Of a stretch of 64,000 nucleotides of DNA, positions 39,566-48,563 are shown in pieces. The translations under genes and the position numbers were made by a program. The stretch's first letter is position 1, and each line of letters opens with the position of its first letter. The notes beneath the pieces are model-generated. The model was not told where the DNA came from and searched no databases. It worked only from the letters and a program-made list of their open reading frames with translations. This stretch comes from Candidatus Latescibacterota bacterium (lineage in GTDB: Bacteria; JAAXHH01), in the NCBI GenBank assembly GCA_022823465.1, contig JAJEHX010000053.1:1-64000 (forward strand), given 5' to 3'.

Positions 39566-40981
39566 GTGACCCCAATTGAGGTACTCGCATACGCCAGGGA
39601 TAATGGCGCGGAAATGGTCGACTTCCGGTTCATCGACGTGCCTGGGACGTGGCAGCACTTTTCCGCGCCCATCGAAACGCTGGAAGAAGAGACTTTCGAG
39701 GAAGGCGTCGGTTTCGACGGCTCGAGCGTCCGTGGTTTTCAGACCATCGATAAAAGCGACATGATCCTGATTCCCGATCCGCTGTCGGCCAAGATGGATC
39801 CTTTTACCGAAGTCAAGACCCTGATCCTGGTCTGCAACGTCAAGGATCCGGTGACCCTTGAAATGTACACGCGCGACCCGCGGTACGTGGCCCAGAAGGC
39901 CGAGGCCTATATGCAGTCCGTGGGCATCGCCGACACGGCGTACTTCGGTCCGGAAGCCGAGTTCTACATCTTCGACGACGTGCGGTTCGCCCAGAAGCCG
40001 AACGCCAGCTTCCATCGCGTCGACGCCGGCGAAGGCTGGTGGAACACCGGCCGCAACGAGGGACCGAACCTCGGCAACAAGATTCCTTACAAGCGCGGTT
40101 ATTTCCCCGTGCCGCCGACCGATACCCACCAGGACCTGCGCACGCGCATGGTGCTGACGCTTCGGAGCATGGGCATCGAGTCGGAAGTCCATCACCACGA
40201 GGTGGGTACGGCGGGACAGGCCGAGATCGACATCCGGTTCAACACCCTGCTGCGGATGTCCGACGACCTGCTCATGTACAAGTACATCGTCAAGAACGTT
40301 GCCCGGCAGGCGGGCAAAACGGTGACCTTCATGCCGAAACCCATCTTCGAGGACAACGGTTCGGGCATGCACGTGCACCAGAGCCTCTGGAAGGACGGCA
40401 AGAATCTCTTCTTCGAGGCCGGTACGTACGCCGACCTGAGCGACATGGCCCGGCATTACATCGGCGGACTGCTCAAGCACACCGCCTCGGTCCTGGCCTT
40501 CGGTGCGCCGACGACGAACTCCTACCGGAGACTCGTCCCGGGTTACGAAGCGCCGATCAACCTGATCTACTCGCAGCGGAACCGCAGCGCATGCGTGCGG
40601 ATCCCCATGTACTCGAAGAGCGAGAAGGCCAAGCGGATCGAGTTCCGCTCGCCGGATCCGGCGGCCAACCCGTACCTGGCCTTCACCGCCATGATGATGG
40701 CCGGCCTGGACGGCATCGAGAATCGCATCGAGCCGCCCGACCCCATCGACCTCGACCTCTACGATCTCGAACCGGAGCAGGCCGCGGAAGTGGCGCACAC
40801 GCCGCAGGACCTCGGCGAGGCGCTGAATGCCCTGGAAGATGACCACGAATACCTCCTCAAGGGCGACGTGTTCACGCCGGACCTGATCGATACGTACCTC
40901 GATTACAAGCGGGAGAACGAGCTGGACCAGATCCGCCTGCGTCCGCACCCGTGGGAGTTCGGGCTCTACTACGACATCTAG
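39566..40981 (+). CDS. glnA: Glutamine synthetase type I
   Basis: 471 residues from GTG 39566, preceded by AGGAGGAG. Makes glutamine from glutamate, ammonia and ATP. Key segments: [71 protein letters not shown] and [20 protein letters not shown]. The adenylylation-site region reads [15 protein letters not shown] with Tyr399, so the enzyme belongs to the adenylylatable (GSI-beta-like) type. A truncated GlnE-like gene follows, after a terminator. Nitrogen-dependent control is likely. Confidence 0.97.
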
Positions 40982-41223: not shown

Positions 41224-42795
41224 ATGACGACGCTCACCTTTGATCGCGTTGCGCTTTCATCACCGGTGACGGACACGGTGTCCGGCCATCTGCAGTCCGC
41301 CGGATTTGAGAATCCGCCCGACGCCTGGCGTATACTGGGACAGATCGACGGACGCCTGGCCCCGCTTGCGCTACCGGGGAATCCCTTCCCGGCGCTGGTC
41401 GAAGCGGCGGGCGTCTCCCTGCAGCCCGACCGGGCCCTCATCAGCCTGCACACGCTTTTTACCCGGTGCGGCGACGAGCATATCCCGGCCCTGCTGGACC
41501 TGCTGGCCGTCCCGTCGGATTCCCGGGACGCCCTGCTCACGATCCTTTCTTGCAGCCCGTACCTCAGCAACGTGCTCGTCCAGGACGTGGGATTCCTGCT
41601 CGACACCTTCGCCGGTGATTCATGGCGCGTACTGCAATCCGCGGAGGAGCTGGACGCCGAACTGGCGGAGATGCTCCAGGGCGTGTCGTCGCCGGACGAG
41701 GCCATGAAACCCCTGCGCACCTTCAAGAAGCGGGCCTACCTGCGCATCGCGGTGTGCGACCTGATGAAGCAGACCGGAACGCCGGCGATCCTGGAACGGC
41801 TCACGGACGTGGCCGACCACTGTCTGCAGGCCGCCCACGACGTGTGCGGCATGAAACTGCAGGAGCGGCACGGACGGCCGATGCTTGAAGGATCGAAGCC
41901 GAGCGGCTTTGCCGTCATCGGCATGGGCAAGCTCGGCGGCCGGGACCTCAACTTCAGTTCGGATATCGACCTGCTCTACGTCTACGACGCCACGGACGGC
42001 CGCACCGAGAAGGACGGGACCTCCACCTACGAGTACTACCCGAAACTCGCCCGGGCCATCACCGACCTCATCAGCAGGCTCACGCCCGACGGTCAGGTGT
42101 TCCGCGTCGACCTGCGCCTCCGTCCGGAGGGGCGGGCCGGCGACATCGCCAATTCGATCGAAGGCTACCGCTGGCACTACGAGATCCAGGGTCAGGCCTG
42201 GCAACGCCAGGCGCTCCTGAAGGCCCGGTGCTCGGCGGGGAGCAAAGAGGTGGGCGGCCTGTTCCTCGACACGATCCAGCCCTTCGTGTTCTACCCGGCC
42301 CTCGACCAGCCGCTGATCCTGGAAGATATCAACCACATGCGGGAGCGGATCGCGAAGGCGCTGATCGAACGGGGCAGCGGTGACTACCACGTCAAGCTGG
42401 GAAAGGGCGGCATCCGGGAGATCGAGTTCATCGCCCAGGGTTTCCAGCTCGTGTACGGCGGATTCCAGGACTGGCCCTGGGAACGCGGCACACGAAACAT
42501 GCTGGCGTCGCTGGCGGAAAAGGGGTACCTGTCAGATGAAGAGGCCTCCGACCTGGACGACGCCTACCTCTTCCTCCGGGACCTTGAAAACCGCATCCAG
42601 ATGACCTCGGGCCACCAGACCCACGAAATCCCCAAGGAACGCGGTGCCCAGGCCGTCCTGGCCGGCATGATGGGGCTGTCGGGAACGACCCTCGAAGCGC
42701 GGGAGGCCGCGCCGGACAGGATGCTGGAAGCCTACGGGAAGCACACCGCCCGCGTCCACCAGATCTACGACCGGGTGTTCCACTCGGCGATGTGA
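41224..42795 (+). CDS. GlnE-like protein with only the N-terminal (deadenylylase-type) half
   Basis: 523 residues, whereas GlnE (glutamine synthetase adenylyltransferase/deadenylylase) is usually about 950. It has the first nucleotidyltransferase motif, GMGKLGGRDLNFSSDIDLLY, with Asp247 and Asp249, then VFRVDLRLRPEGRAGDIANS. The following helical domain includes HVKLGKGGIREIEFIAQGFQ, characteristic of the region after the N-terminal domain. The protein stops after YGKHTARVHQIYDRVFHSAM, just where the linker to the second (adenylylating) half would begin, and no second half is encoded nearby. The frame shows no decay. It may only remove AMP from glutamine synthetase, or have a separate partner. 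Confidence 0.88.
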   Translation: MTTLTFDRVALSSPVTDTVSGHLQSAGFENPPDAWRILGQIDGRLAPLALPGNPFPALVEAAGVSLQPDRALISLHTLFTRCGDEHIPALLDLLAVPSDSRDALLTILSCSPYLSNVLVQDVGFLLDTFAGDSWRVLQSAEELDAELAEMLQGVSSPDEAMKPLRTFKKRAYLRIAVCDLMKQTGTPAILERLTDVADHCLQAAHDVCGMKLQERHGRPMLEGSKPSGFAVIGMGKLGGRDLNFSSDIDLLYVYDATDGRTEKDGTSTYEYYPKLARAITDLISRLTPDGQVFRVDLRLRPEGRAGDIANSIEGYRWHYEIQGQAWQRQALLKARCSAGSKEVGGLFLDTIQPFVFYPALDQPLILEDINHMRERIAKALIERGSGDYHVKLGKGGIREIEFIAQGFQLVYGGFQDWPWERGTRNMLASLAEKGYLSDEEASDLDDAYLFLRDLENRIQMTSGHQTHEIPKERGAQAVLAGMMGLSGTTLEAREAAPDRMLEAYGKHTARVHQIYDRVFHSAM

Positions 42796-43009: not shown

Positions 43010-45241
43010 ATGCCTATGAGCGATTCCAAACTCTCATCTCTTGTCGTCCGTGCCCAGACCGGCGACCGCGCAGCCTACGACGACATCGTCCTCCTTTTCC
43101 AGGACATGGCGGTGGGCTACGCCTCCGCCCTGCTGGGCGATTTCCATCTGGCCGAAGACGCCGCGCAGGAGGCCTTTGTAGGCGCATGGACCGAACTGCC
43201 GCGCCTTCGGAAACCGGCAGCGTTCCCCGGATGGTTCAAGCGGATCGTCTTCATGCGCTGCAGTCGCGTGTCGCGCAAGCGACAGCCCGTGGGCATCGAA
43301 CATGCGTCGGCAGAGTCGCTGGCGACGGCCGATCCTCGGGAGGAACTGGAATCGCGCGACGAGAAAGCCAGGGTCATGGGCGCGATCGGACGGCTGCCCG
43401 ACGAAGAGCGCGTGGCGATGTTGCTGTTCTACATTTCGAATTATACGCACCAGGAAGTCGGATCGTTTCTGGGCCTGCCGGCGTCGACGGTCAACAACCG
43501 GCTGCGATCGGCCCGCAAAAAGCTGCGAAAGGAGTTGCTTAAAATGGCTGAACGGGAATTGCCTGGACAGGCACCCTCGCGCGACGAGCGCTTCGCGCAA
43601 CGGGTCGCGTATCTGCTCCAGCCCGATGACATGAAGACCGAACGCTACCAGTACGGGATCGAAGCCGTGGACGGACACCTGGCCTGGGCGCTCTTCTGCG
43701 CCAGCGGGGCAGGCGACCTGGCGCGGGTCAGCGCCATGCTCGACCGGGACCCCGGGCTGGTCAACGCGCAGTACTGGTACCAGTTTCCCATTCACATGGC
43801 GGTGCGCGAGGGTCATGCCGAGGTGGTGCAGACGCTATTGCAGGCCGGTGCCGACCCGGGCCAGTCGCGTTATACGTACAATTCATGGGACAAATTGCTC
43901 GACATCTGCGAGGAACGCGGCTACAGCGGGGTCAAGGCGCTGCTGGAGGCGGAGATGCGGGAGCGATTCGGCTACGATCCGAAATTCATCGCGTTAGTTG
44001 AGGCGATTAAAAGTCGAGATCGGACACGCGTAGAGGCGGTGTTGGCTGATCAATCCGAATTGATACACGCTTCCGACGCACTGGGCAATGGACCGCTGCA
44101 CTGGGCGGCGTTGACGAGGCAGATCGACCTGGTGGATTTCTTTGTCGCACGGGGCGCAGACCTGGAAGCCCGCCGTGCCGACGGCCAGACTCCGTTGCTT
44201 GTTTCGCTTAACGGGGACTATTGGTTCCAGTCGAGCGATTTGCCTGCGGATGCGCCGCAGGACACCTGGATCGTCACCCGCCACTTGCTCGCTTGCGGTG
44301 CGGAGTACGCACTGAGCATCGCCTGCGCGGCTGGGGATGAAGAACGAGTCGAGGCGGTGCTGGCCTCCGACCCGGTCCAAGCCCGCATCCTCGATGCCGG
44401 AAGGCGCAGTCCGCTTGCCTATGCCGCTGGTAACGCCCACACCCGGATCGTCGAAAGACTGCTGGACCTGGGCGCCGACCCCAACCTGCCGGAAGAAAAC
44501 GCACCGCGTGGAGGAGCACTTTTCGCCGCTTGCACGGGCAACTACCTGGAGACGGCGGAACTGCTGCTCAAACGAGGTGCCGATCCCAACGCCGAAGTCG
44601 ACTCTTCCGGATCCTGTCTGGCCACTGTCGAGTACAATCATGGCACAAAGGGCCATCGGTTACAGGACCTGTTGCGCGAATACGGCGCCGTGACACCGCC
44701 TTTAGCCATGGACGACGCCACGCTGGAACGAGCCGTGCGCGAGGGGGATGGCATTGTTCAGCATCCACAATTCCTGCACAAGTTGATGGGACAGAACAAT
44801 CCCGAACTCATCGGCATCTTTCTGGAAACCACGCCGGACGTGGGTGATCTTTTTCGACTGACGGACATCTGGGGCGGCAACTATCCTTCAGACCCCGATA
44901 CGGTCCGTGCCCTGGCCGCCCATGGCATTGATCTTTTCCGAGCCAACTGGATCGGCCGCACCTTTCTGCACGGCTGTGCCGAAAAGGGCGATGTCGCGGC
45001 GGCCCGCGTCTTTCTGGAGTTGGGGGCCGACATTGAGGCGATCGAGCTGGAATTCGGGGGAACGCCGTTGGCCGCAGCCGCGCGCTTCGGACAGGTGGAG
45101 ATGGTGCGTTTCCTGTTGGACCAGGGTGCCGATCCTGCTGCGCCAGTCGATTCGCCCTGGGCGCAGCCGCTATATTGGGCCGAGAAGGAAGGGCACGGGG
45201 AAGTGGTAGCGCTGCTGAAAGACCGTATATCCCTTCGATAG
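43010..45241 (+). CDS. ECF-type sigma factor fused to ankyrin repeats
   Basis: 743 residues. Residues 8-90 are a sigma region 2 (YDDIVLLFQDMAVGYASALL, EDAAQEAFVGAWTELPRLRK) and 120-180 a region 4 with helix-turn-helix (YTHQEVGSFLGLPASTVNNR). From about 224 to the end there are ankyrin repeats: FPIHMAVREGHAEVVQTLLQ, NGPLHWAALTRQIDLVDFFV, RSPLAYAAGNAHTRIVERLL and TPLAAAARFGQVEMVRFLLD. Ordinary ECF factors are under 220 residues. The tail could sense a protein partner in place of a membrane anti-sigma factor, which is absent nearby. The start ATG 43010 or 43016 is preceded by a small hairpin (42983-43003) rather than a strong ribosome-binding site. Confidence 0.9.
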   Translation: MPMSDSKLSSLVVRAQTGDRAAYDDIVLLFQDMAVGYASALLGDFHLAEDAAQEAFVGAWTELPRLRKPAAFPGWFKRIVFMRCSRVSRKRQPVGIEHASAESLATADPREELESRDEKARVMGAIGRLPDEERVAMLLFYISNYTHQEVGSFLGLPASTVNNRLRSARKKLRKELLKMAERELPGQAPSRDERFAQRVAYLLQPDDMKTERYQYGIEAVDGHLAWALFCASGAGDLARVSAMLDRDPGLVNAQYWYQFPIHMAVREGHAEVVQTLLQAGADPGQSRYTYNSWDKLLDICEERGYSGVKALLEAEMRERFGYDPKFIALVEAIKSRDRTRVEAVLADQSELIHASDALGNGPLHWAALTRQIDLVDFFVARGADLEARRADGQTPLLVSLNGDYWFQSSDLPADAPQDTWIVTRHLLACGAEYALSIACAAGDEERVEAVLASDPVQARILDAGRRSPLAYAAGNAHTRIVERLLDLGADPNLPEENAPRGGALFAACTGNYLETAELLLKRGADPNAEVDSSGSCLATVEYNHGTKGHRLQDLLREYGAVTPPLAMDDATLERAVREGDGIVQHPQFLHKLMGQNNPELIGIFLETTPDVGDLFRLTDIWGGNYPSDPDTVRALAAHGIDLFRANWIGRTFLHGCAEKGDVAAARVFLELGADIEAIELEFGGTPLAAAARFGQVEMVRFLLDQGADPAAPVDSPWAQPLYWAEKEGHGEVVALLKDRISLR

Positions 45242-45391: not shown

Positions 45392-45435
45392 AAAAACGCC
45401 CGGCCCTGGTTACATCTCTTCCAGGACCGGGCGTT
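45392..45435 (-). terminator. Terminator of the RND efflux operon
   Basis: Inverted repeat with 14 pairs and one mismatch: arms 45395-45409 and 45421-45435, loop of 11 bases. On the minus strand the stem is followed by TTTTTG, giving an intrinsic terminator about 50 bp beyond the stop of the last RND gene. The opposite strand lacks a T-tract. Confidence 0.88.
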
Positions 45436-45482: not shown

Positions 45483-48400
45483 TTACGCCCAGGCCCGCTT
45501 CATGCTGGACATGACCCACCGGCTCAGGTCCTCGAAGATCGTGTAGACCGTCGGCAGCAGGATGAGGGTCAGGATGCCCGAAGTGGTCAGGCCGCCCACC
45601 AGGGCCAGGCTGACCGGACCCCACTGGTTGGCGCCGCGGTCTTCCACTGGCCCGAAGATCTCGGGAAAGAGGATCGGGGCCACCATGGGCAACAGGCCGA
45701 AGATGGTGGTCAGGGACGTCATCAGGATCGGCCGCAGGCGGTGCCGGCCACCCATCAGGAGGGCTTCGGTGCGCGTCATCCCCTCCTTGCGCAAATGGTT
45801 CACGTGGTCGATGAGCACGATGGCGTTGTTCACCGCCAGCCCCGACAGGACGATGATGCCCAGGTAGGAGTTCGTATTCAGCGTCGTCCCGGACAGGTAG
45901 AACACGACGAAGGCGCCCACCAGTCCGCAAAGCACCGACAACAGGATCGTGAAGGGCTGGATGAAAGATTCCGAAATCGCCGCCATGATCAGGTAGATGA
46001 GGACCACGGAAAGCAGGATGGCGAAGAGGAACTCGCTCTGGGATTCCCGCATCATGTTCCAGTTCCGGCCCATGTTCCAGGAGTAACCGGGAGGCAGTTC
46101 CATCTGCTCCATCATCTCCGCCACCTGCGCGTTGACCTGGCGGGAGCCGGTTCCCGTGATGTTGCCGCCCACTTCCACCTGCGATTCCCGGTCCTCCCGC
46201 CGGATGGCGTCGGGTCCCTTCTGTCGCGTGAAGCTGGCCAGGTTCCCCACGGGGATCATGCCGCCTTCCGCCCGATCGAAGGTCATGTTCTGCAGCTTGG
46301 CCATGCTGGCCCGGTCCTCTTCCTCGAGGTGCAGCAGGATGTCTACCTCGCGGTCGTCCGCCTTGAACTTGCCCCGGGCGCGGCTGCTCAGCGCTGCCTG
46401 GACCGTCCGCGCCGCCTGCCGCGGCGAGATGCCGTAGGTCTGGGCCATGGCCCGGTCGACCTGCACCTGGATTTCCTCGTCGCCCCGCTCCAGGCTGGTG
46501 TCCACGTCCTTCAATCCCGGGATGGCTTCCATTCGGCCCCGGATATCCTCGGCGATATTGGAAAGCACCGCCATGTTGTCGCCGCGCAGTTCCACGTCTA
46601 CGCCCGACTGCCCGCCGCCGTACCGCCGCATGCGTCCGGGTCTCCAGCGCACGCCGGCGACCTCCGGCAATGCCTTCGTGATCCGGGCCTGGAGTTCCTT
46701 GGCCGATTCCTGCCGTTCCTCGGGCGGGGTCAGCACGATGCGGAAGTTGGCCCTGCGGAGGCTGCCGTAGGACGAGATGGACTCGATGTGGAAATCCTCC
46801 TTGCTGTCCAACAGGAGCGTTTCCACTTCGCCGAAGACCTCCTTGACGTCCTCGATGCTGTAACTGCTCGGCAGGTCGGCGGCGATGGCGATATCCCGCG
46901 TCGGCGCCATGGGCTGGAATTCCGTCTCGATGTTCTGGTACAGCCAGTAGCTTCCGTAGAGAATCGCCGCGAAAGAGGCCACCGTGACGAACCGGTGCTT
47001 CAGGTTCCAGGCCAGTACCTTGGAGTAGAGTTCGGAAAGCCGCGCGAAGAACGAAGAGGGCTTGCCCAGCGGCCGGGCGAAGAGCCGGGAGGAGACCAGC
47101 GGTATGAGCGTCAGCGCGATGAACACCGCCGCCACCATGACGATGCAGAAGGTGACCACGAAGTCCTTCATGAAGAGCATGACCCGGCTGCCGCCGCCCA
47201 GGAAGACGAGGGGCAGGAAGACGCACAGGGTCGTGGCCGTGGCCGCGATGATGGCCATGGTCACCTCGCGGGTGCCCACGACGGCCGCGATACGCGCCGG
47301 CAGGTTCGACTCCTGTCTATGGCGGTAGATGCTCTCCAGCACCACCACGGCGCTGTCCACGAGCATGCCCACGGCGAGCATCAGGCCCATGAGCGAGATC
47401 AGGTTGATGGACACCGTGGATCCCGCCCCCTGCCGGAGCAGGTACATGAAGGTAAAGGTGCAGATGATCGAAATGGGGATCGCGAGGCTGATGATCACCG
47501 TGCTCCGCATGTTGCGCAGGAAGAGGTACAGCACGATCACCGCCAGCAGACCGCCCAGCATGCCCGTGTTGCGCAGGTCAGACAGCCGGTCCGTGATACT
47601 CTGGGACTGGTCGAAGAACACGCGGGTCTCCAGATCGGCGAACTGGGGCTGGGACTTGATCTCGTCCAGCACGGACGCCGCGCGCTGCGCCACGTCCACG
47701 ATGTTGGCCGTGGATGTCTTGTACACCCGGATCGTGACCGCGTCGACCCCGTTCAACCGCTGGAAGCTGTCGTTTTCCGGGTAGTCGAATTTCACCCGCG
47801 CCACGTCGCTCAGGGAGAGGGTCGTGCCCGGTATGGGCAGATTCGCCACTTCCTCGGCGGCCCGGTACTCGTTCACCGATCGCACCGCGTACTTGCGGCC
47901 GCCCTCGGTGACCGTCCCCGCCGTCATGGTGATGTTGTTCTGCACCAGGGTCTGGCTCAGGTTGAACATGTCCAGGTTGTGGGACTGGAGCTTCTCGTTG
48001 TCCACGTGGACCAGCAGCTGCTTTTCGACCATGCCGCTGATCTCCACGTTCGCCACGCCGTCCACCCGCTGGATCCGCGGCTGGATCACCTTGGTGACGA
48101 TGTTGTAGAACTCCGCGGGATCCCCGCCCCAGGCCACGCTGAAGTTGTAGATGGGCATGTCGTTCGGATTCCAGCGGCGGATGCGGATGCGCTCCACGTC
48201 ATCGGGCAGGTCGCCCCGCACCTGGTCGATGCGGTCCCGCACTTCCATGGCCGCCATGTTCATGTCCGTCCCCGTCTCGAACTCGATGCGGATCCGGGCG
48301 TTGTCGTCGCTGGAGGTGGATTCCATGCTCTTCATGTTGCTCAACGTGCCGAAGGCGTCCTCCAGCGGACGGGAGATCAGCCTTTGCACTTCCTCGGGCG

Positions 48401-48563
48401 AGGAGGAAGGATAGGGGACGCTGACGTTCAGCGACGGAAAGGACATATCCGGCAGGAACATCAGCGGCAGCTTAGTGTAGGAAATCACACCAAGGGCCAC
48501 GACGCTGACGATGATCATGATCGTCGTGACCGGTCGGTTTACGGAAAACTCGGCTATGCTCAT
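45483..48563 (-). CDS. RND efflux transporter permease (HAE1/AcrB-like), second of pair
   Basis: 1026 residues, normal length for the family. Twelve membrane segments with two large periplasmic loops. N-terminus FSVNRPVTTIMIIVSVVALG; TM4 carries GMLVDSAVVVLESIYRHRQ, where a single Asp occupies the proton-relay position; conserved VEISGMVEKQLLVHVDNEKL and the C-terminal LIDHVNHLRKEGMTRTEALL. It should use proton motive force to export drugs, detergents or envelope-derived compounds. It overlaps the first permease gene by 4 bp (ATGA), suggesting a heteromeric pump like MdtB-MdtC. Confidence 0.95.
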   Translation of the reverse strand: MSIAEFSVNRPVTTIMIIVSVVALGVISYTKLPLMFLPDMSFPSLNVSVPYPSSSPEEVQRLISRPLEDAFGTLSNMKSMESTSSDDNARIRIEFETGTDMNMAAMEVRDRIDQVRGDLPDDVERIRIRRWNPNDMPIYNFSVAWGGDPAEFYNIVTKVIQPRIQRVDGVANVEISGMVEKQLLVHVDNEKLQSHNLDMFNLSQTLVQNNITMTAGTVTEGGRKYAVRSVNEYRAAEEVANLPIPGTTLSLSDVARVKFDYPENDSFQRLNGVDAVTIRVYKTSTANIVDVAQRAASVLDEIKSQPQFADLETRVFFDQSQSITDRLSDLRNTGMLGGLLAVIVLYLFLRNMRSTVIISLAIPISIICTFTFMYLLRQGAGSTVSINLISLMGLMLAVGMLVDSAVVVLESIYRHRQESNLPARIAAVVGTREVTMAIIAATATTLCVFLPLVFLGGGSRVMLFMKDFVVTFCIVMVAAVFIALTLIPLVSSRLFARPLGKPSSFFARLSELYSKVLAWNLKHRFVTVASFAAILYGSYWLYQNIETEFQPMAPTRDIAIAADLPSSYSIEDVKEVFGEVETLLLDSKEDFHIESISSYGSLRRANFRIVLTPPEERQESAKELQARITKALPEVAGVRWRPGRMRRYGGGQSGVDVELRGDNMAVLSNIAEDIRGRMEAIPGLKDVDTSLERGDEEIQVQVDRAMAQTYGISPRQAARTVQAALSSRARGKFKADDREVDILLHLEEEDRASMAKLQNMTFDRAEGGMIPVGNLASFTRQKGPDAIRREDRESQVEVGGNITGTGSRQVNAQVAEMMEQMELPPGYSWNMGRNWNMMRESQSEFLFAILLSVVLIYLIMAAISESFIQPFTILLSVLCGLVGAFVVFYLSGTTLNTNSYLGIIVLSGLAVNNAIVLIDHVNHLRKEGMTRTEALLMGGRHRLRPILMTSLTTIFGLLPMVAPILFPEIFGPVEDRGANQWGPVSLALVGGLTTSGILTLILLPTVYTIFEDLSRWVMSSMKRAWA

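Follow-up and report, generated by a model that had tools for sequence, protein, structure and literature searches.

An ECF sigma factor with a long ankyrin-repeat tail and the exchange of tails within its sigma clade

Most ECF sigma factors are kept in check by an anti-sigma factor that is a protein of its own. How, then, could an ECF factor be controlled that has no anti-sigma gene at its side and carries a long protein-binding repeat domain instead? This question is raised by a gene of an uncultured marine bacterium, here called sigma-ANK1, which lies in a 64,000-nucleotide stretch of contig JAJEHX010000053.1 (the window). The original prediction described positions 43010 to 45241 as an ECF sigma factor fused to more than 500 residues of ankyrin-like repeats, called such a tail uncommon, and suggested that it might be a built-in regulator or a recruiter.

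The sigma-ANK1 gene and its locus

Sigma-ANK1 (43010..45241, + strand) runs through 743 codons in one open frame without an internal stop. Its likelier start is the second ATG, at 43016 (741 aa), since GGGTGA stands 6 nt before this codon in most orthologues and the family alignment begins there. A complete ECF sigma factor occupies residues 9-181 according to Pfam and structure-based alignments, with region 2 at 43097..43282 (+; residues 30-91; Pfam PF04542 Sigma70_r2, 1.8e-9) and the helix-turn-helix of region 4 at 43370..43525 (+; residues 121-172; Pfam PF08281 Sigma70_r4_2, 3.6e-11). The original prediction had left room for a damaged region 4, which proved intact. Pfam found only r2 and r4, sigma3 being absent, which is the domain content of an ECF (group 4) factor, and the NCBIfam superfamily model sigma70-ECF scored 73.5 bits against a cut-off of 42.9. 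Residues 12-177 align to the entire SigW (PDB 5wuq, 8.6e-17), and the sigma part also aligns over its full length with SigH and RpoE of known structure.

The sigma part is followed by a linker, APSRDERFAQRV...LQP (43550..43618, +; residues 181-203), which alignments show to be kept in fused family members and which AlphaFold2 predicts to be unstructured over residues 176-199. The remainder is the ankyrin domain, here called module A (43619..45232, +), which spans residues 204-741, that is, ~538 residues and ~15 repeats, in line with the length first proposed. Pfam matched Ank_2 to this tail (8.4e-40, 7 stretches), AlphaFold2 gave a confident helical solenoid at residues 220-560, mostly at pLDDT >90, and fold comparison returned generic ankyrins and DARPins only, with PDB E-values down to 1.7e-14; the Pfam Ank families, the model and the PDB matches thus all describe an ankyrin-repeat solenoid of tandem helix-turn-helix repeats of ~33 residues. 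No match to TPR, WD40 or SnoaL domains was found in the Pfam scan of sigma-ANK1. The structure prediction called for at the outset supplied the linker and the solenoid, but its modelling of the sigma part, on 12 sequences only, was poor and brought out no contact between sigma part and tail.

The open frame is one unbroken gene and no chimera. An assembly join or a frameshift, which the original prediction had named as a danger, is ruled out by syntenic intact orthologues in five other genomes. On the 5' side, glnA, encoding glutamine synthetase (39566..40981, +; ORF read directly), is conserved in every genus genome examined and precedes a half-length GlnE-like adenylyltransferase gene (41224..42795, +; Pfam PF03710 2e-58, PF08335 4.8e-28). 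This half-length GlnE, directly 3' of glnA, consists of one adenylyltransferase domain and a GlnD_UR_UTase domain; a second, distant GlnE-like gene lies elsewhere in the window genome. The gap between the glnE-like gene and sigma-ANK1 is 215 bp in the window and only ~67 bp in orthologues, so that sigma-ANK1 may be co-transcribed with glnA-glnE. On the 3' side, a convergent gene for an RND efflux pump of the AcrB family (45483..48563, -; Pfam PF00873 2.6e-221) stands outside the sigma-ANK1 unit. A GC-rich inverted repeat read from the sequence at 45393..45435, predicted to be a conserved two-way terminator, separates sigma-ANK1 from the convergent RND genes and is kept also where sigma-ANK1 has been lost. 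As first reported, no anti-sigma gene flanks sigma-ANK1, whose neighbours are glnA, the glnE-like gene and the convergent RND pair, and the classical arrangement of an ECF gene with its anti-sigma gene is not found at this locus.

Full-length orthologues with 84-85% identity are encoded in 5 of the 11 other genus genomes, always between the half-length glnE-like gene and the convergent RND pair. The same glnE-RND junction is present in the genomes that have no sigma-ANK1 (6 of 12), and in two of them (L090, L091) an exact 22-24 nt match to the sigma2 coding stretch 43240..43263 (+) survives as a relic just past the glnE-like stop codon. The relics and the shared junction argue that sigma-ANK1 was lost from these genomes and not recently gained in the window genome. 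A recent horizontal gain is likewise disfavoured by the identity of the orthologues, which equals that of the flanking gene (85-86%). Both halves of the protein are under purifying selection, the most constrained part being sigma2 (pooled pN/pS 0.09), followed by the ankyrin repeats (0.17-0.30), sigma4 (0.26) and the linker (0.42).

Free ankyrin modules and exchanged tails

Proteins related to sigma-ANK1 occur in 16 of 16 genomes of the small GTDB phylum to which the window belongs. Among them is a paralogue, sigma-ANK2, with ~39% identity over its full length, which was found across the genus, one incomplete genome having a cut copy only; it sits within a ~35 kb island of about ten ankyrin genes (L103-L106). 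A scan of GTDB contigs recovered fused members in metagenome-assembled genomes labelled Gemmatimonadetes, Latescibacterota and Poribacteria, and module A without a sigma domain mainly in Planctomycetota. Stand-alone proteins of Planctomycetota and Gemmatimonadota (L069, L070, L072, L076, L078-L080, L082) are homologous along the sigma-ANK1 tail, to which they are 42-52% identical, but have no sigma domain. Their homology begins at (L)TQPxxMKTxxY.YGV..DG.DAW, which is residue ~200 of the window protein, and the fusion junction is thereby made visible. Fused and free proteins have in common invariant residues that lie off the usual ankyrin framework, among them W226, Y257, R389, D391, P494, E495 and S532, which suggests a common binding surface older than the fusion.

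Module A probably predates its fusion with the sigma domain. The ankyrin superfamily tree contains at least nine changes between fused and stand-alone states, and a single fused clade inside module A was mildly rejected (AU p 0.025), which makes repeated fusion or fission in this module probable, with modest support. We also considered a separate ECF partner encoded beside the free ankyrin modules; at the sensitivity used, the ~8 kb flanks held no ECF gene, except for weak matches near L072.

The sigma domain, followed in turn, appears with many other tails. A search with the sigma-domain profile gave 62 distinct proteins, and in 59 of them the tail is 128 residues long or more; of the other three, one runs into a contig end and two stop shortly behind region 4. 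On the sigma tree, 45 rows form one core clade (branch support 98/91), and on the whole tree, made of this clade and four rows outside it, the tail class changes at least nine times. The ankyrin tails of the core clade comprise module A, module B and other arrays, and its non-ankyrin tails comprise TPR, an AAA+ sigma54-activator domain (two genera), PurC and PurB (two genomes), besides a GNAT-like tail in two genomes that is without Pfam support. Among 384 sampled genomes, nearly all of different families, the sigma profile found strong matches in the window's phylum only, bar three weaker ones. In Poribacteria, which were searched separately from this sample, tails of this sigma domain include other ankyrin arrays, TPR, an AAA+ domain, PurC and PurB. 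The domain search thus modified the judgement that such fusions are uncommon: it stands for the literature, where we found no ECF-ankyrin group, but not for the window's phylum and Poribacteria, in which the fusion is recurrent and conserved.

The enzyme tails belong to purine synthesis proteins. Sigma-PurB, with an adenylosuccinate lyase, is encoded in two Poribacteria (L146:509-2578 in G065 and L179:937-3006 in G066), its PurB part being 92.8% identical between the two species; no second PurB scoring above the family cut-off was detected in G065 or G066, one of these genomes being only 79% complete. Sigma-PurC, with a SAICAR synthetase, occurs in three sister species (L203:748-2343 in G076, L125:1399-2856 in G077, L206:817-2343 in G078) on sigma domains of two different kinds. 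In the genome where PurC sits on a core-clade sigma, the normal PurC is 93% identical to the fused copy, and in two sister species PurC is joined to a different ECF sigma; G077 and G078 both have a normal PurC as well. Among more distant relatives of the sigma domain, the tails are thioredoxin, a bifunctional nuclease domain or a ribosomal protein S2 that lacks an internal segment.

The ECF fusions with S2, bifunctional nuclease, thioredoxin and AAA+ sigma54-activator tails lie at L198:455-1579, L194:361-1680, L203:2653-3750, L138 and L181. Poribacterial ECF sigma ORFs of ~900-1250 aa are numerous in G054-G142, and the tail of the one scanned, L036, gives a weak match to a BNR / sortilin-like propeller. 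Two adjoining ECF sigma proteins of ~640 aa each (L014, L015; G000:C49:226121-229792) have ~440 aa tails, that of L014, the one scanned, being without a Pfam match.

A conserved, probable promoter motif of the paralogue

Upstream of sigma-ANK2, roughly 60-110 nt before the ATG, the motif TGTAACRNC-N14-RYACTA is kept at fixed spacing in ten genus genomes while the surrounding DNA has diverged; several genomes including G005 have it with one mismatch (GGTAAC), and one genome fragment has its 3' half only. ECF -35 elements commonly contain an AAC core. In four genomes the same motif with the same spacing stands tens of nucleotides before an operon of the sigma-ANK2 island that encodes a stand-alone module B ankyrin and an SRPBCC-like protein, the latter name resting on its sequence rather than on a Pfam match (sites at L012:932, L104:3355 on the - strand, L105:14548 and L062:3146 on the - strand). 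We regard this SRPBCC-ankyrin operon as a candidate regulon of sigma-ANK2. In G005 the two sites are about 16 kb apart, and in 1.6 Mb of this genome the strict motif occurs only before the SRPBCC-ankyrin operon, with 0 occurrences in five shuffles. Allowing one mismatch gave 11 sites in the same 1.6 Mb, fewer than the about 33 in shuffles, so that the strict motif alone is informative.

Module B is also the tail of the Poribacteria sigma proteins L116-L121, and a module B gene follows directly behind sigma-ANK1 in RS822 (L065). The shared promoter motif, this adjacency and the fusion together tie these sigma factors to the same ankyrin family. The window itself contains no copy of the sigma-ANK2 motif, even with one mismatch, and the motif evidence hence concerns the paralogue. 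Upstream of sigma-ANK1, no conserved promoter was seen among orthologues in a region that is short and diverged. Sigma-ANK2 probably works as a sigma factor, and sigma function appears likely for these ankyrin-tailed ECF proteins.

Proposed function and alternatives

Among known systems, the nearest are ECF factors whose own C terminus takes the place of the anti-sigma factor. ECF42 has a TPR tail of ~200 aa and no anti-sigma factor, and is proposed to be activated through contact with other proteins (PMC8999054); sigma-ANK1 resembles it in lacking an anti-sigma gene and in ending in protein-binding repeats, but its tail is an ankyrin solenoid of ~540 aa, and no YCII-domain neighbour was seen at its locus. 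ECF57 (e.g., in Singulisphaera) has a large C-terminal WD40-like repeat tail proposed to bind partners (PMC8999054), and shares with sigma-ANK1 the size and place of the tail, whereas the repeats differ in type; a conserved cysteine pair linking sigma2 and sigma4 is described for ECF57. In ECF41, ECF56, ECF205, ECF294 and ECF295 a fused C-terminal domain likewise replaces the anti-sigma factor, but this is a small SnoaL-like domain, of 120-150 aa in ECF56 and related groups. By its tail domain, sigma-ANK1 belongs to neither ECF42 nor ECF57, nor to the ECF41/ECF56 type, and its NCBIfam equivalog and subfamily scores, among the matches listed, are below cut-off. By analogy, the best reading is that sigma-ANK1 probably works like ECF42 and ECF57.

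On balance, we hold it to be moderately probable that sigma-ANK1 is a one-component ECF factor whose tail stands in for the anti-sigma factor and binds a conserved partner or ligand. We propose a model in which the sigma2-sigma4 part would bind RNA polymerase and the promoter, and a flexible linker of ~20 residues would connect it to a preformed ankyrin solenoid acting as a built-in sensor. Binding of the partner protein or ligand to this solenoid would free the sigma part or let it work. With the sigma part constant and the tail swapped within the clade, one-component sigma factors with different inputs could arise. Because module A exists alone and probably predates the fusion, its partner is probably older than the fusion as well. 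The gene structure, its conservation, the selection, the tail exchange and the motif shared by the paralogue were observed, whereas control of the sigma part by the tail, the nature of the input and the genes that sigma-ANK1 would serve are inferred. The early suggestion of a built-in regulator or recruiter remains plausible in the light of the tail exchange, the selection on both halves, the prior stand-alone module and the motif of the paralogue. Against this reading speak the dispensability of the gene, missing from half of the genus genomes, and the negative search for a promoter motif upstream of sigma-ANK1, and PurB, as the only copy detected in two genomes, would be odd as a pure sensor. 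A wider version of this reading, in which the sigma clade of the window's phylum and Poribacteria is an interchangeable output module on one conserved linker, with tails from ankyrin to PurB and PurC, is put forward tentatively and may well not hold.

The main rival is that the tail recruits: the sigma part would be an address and the tail a payload brought to RNA polymerase or to certain promoters, where an ankyrin adaptor or an enzyme would act on transcription or on local proteins rather than sense. We consider this unlikely, although whole enzymes and an AAA+ sigma54-activator domain occur as tails on the same sigma domain, the enzyme of sigma-PurB is presumably active, being the only PurB above the cut-off in G065 and G066, and protein-binding repeats have been described in other ECF factors (PMC8999054). 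Recruitment indeed suits the enzyme fusions better than the ankyrin fusions; ankyrin tails alone bring no catalytic payload, and the promoter motif and target operon of sigma-ANK2 point to an ordinary sigma function.

Very unlikely in our view is a by-product of recombination, by which genomes rich in ECF and ankyrin genes would keep producing in-frame fusions with a nearly functionless sigma part or tail. The recurrent loss of sigma-ANK1, the great variety of tails, including the S2 paralogue with its internal deletion, and the split or frameshifted copies of the family (L065, L066, L111) would fit such an origin, but it is hard to reconcile with strong purifying selection on sigma2 and on the ankyrin part, with the full-length conservation of sigma-ANK2 across the genus or with the conservation of its promoter motif. 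Hardly probable, finally, is a defence or stress switch that would sense invaders and activate an immune or ankyrin gene island, comparable to MzaA, the sigma factor of the anti-phage system MZA. The NCBIfam model of MzaA is named a sigma-70 family factor and contains an ankyrin-like stretch, the ankyrin part of sigma-ANK1 matches residues 21-89 of it (1.3e-18), sigma-ANK2 lies among ankyrin genes, and architectures predicted to serve bacterial immunity include ECF-like domains (PMC8195603). Yet sigma-ANK1 scores 64-67 bits, far short of the 800 set as cut-off for MzaA, and the match reflects ankyrin similarity only, near the N terminus of MzaA and in the C-terminal tail of sigma-ANK1. Neither mzaBCDE nor any other defence gene was found beside sigma-ANK1, and its PADLOC matches are generic ankyrins. 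Identity with MzaA was rejected.

In the literature compared, including a review of ECF factors with extensions, we found no ECF-ankyrin group, no exchange of tails and no sigma fusion of Poribacteria. The sigma-ANK family is apparently undescribed, but it could already bear an ECF group number, the 2021 classification lying outside that literature. ECF groups with fused regulators mostly have one tail type each (PMC8999054); here, about six classes of tail follow the same linker within a single sigma clade. With many tails on one clade and with ankyrin modules that can be followed free and fused, the origin of a fused sigma regulator becomes traceable, and the promoter motif of sigma-ANK2 makes its function testable in a laboratory host. 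Sigma-PurB and sigma-PurC raise the question of whether housekeeping enzymes can act as sensors for sigma factors. If the sigma domain is indeed an interchangeable output module, one-component sigma factors of this kind would make up a large class, and some of them would read metabolic flux directly through a catalytic tail.
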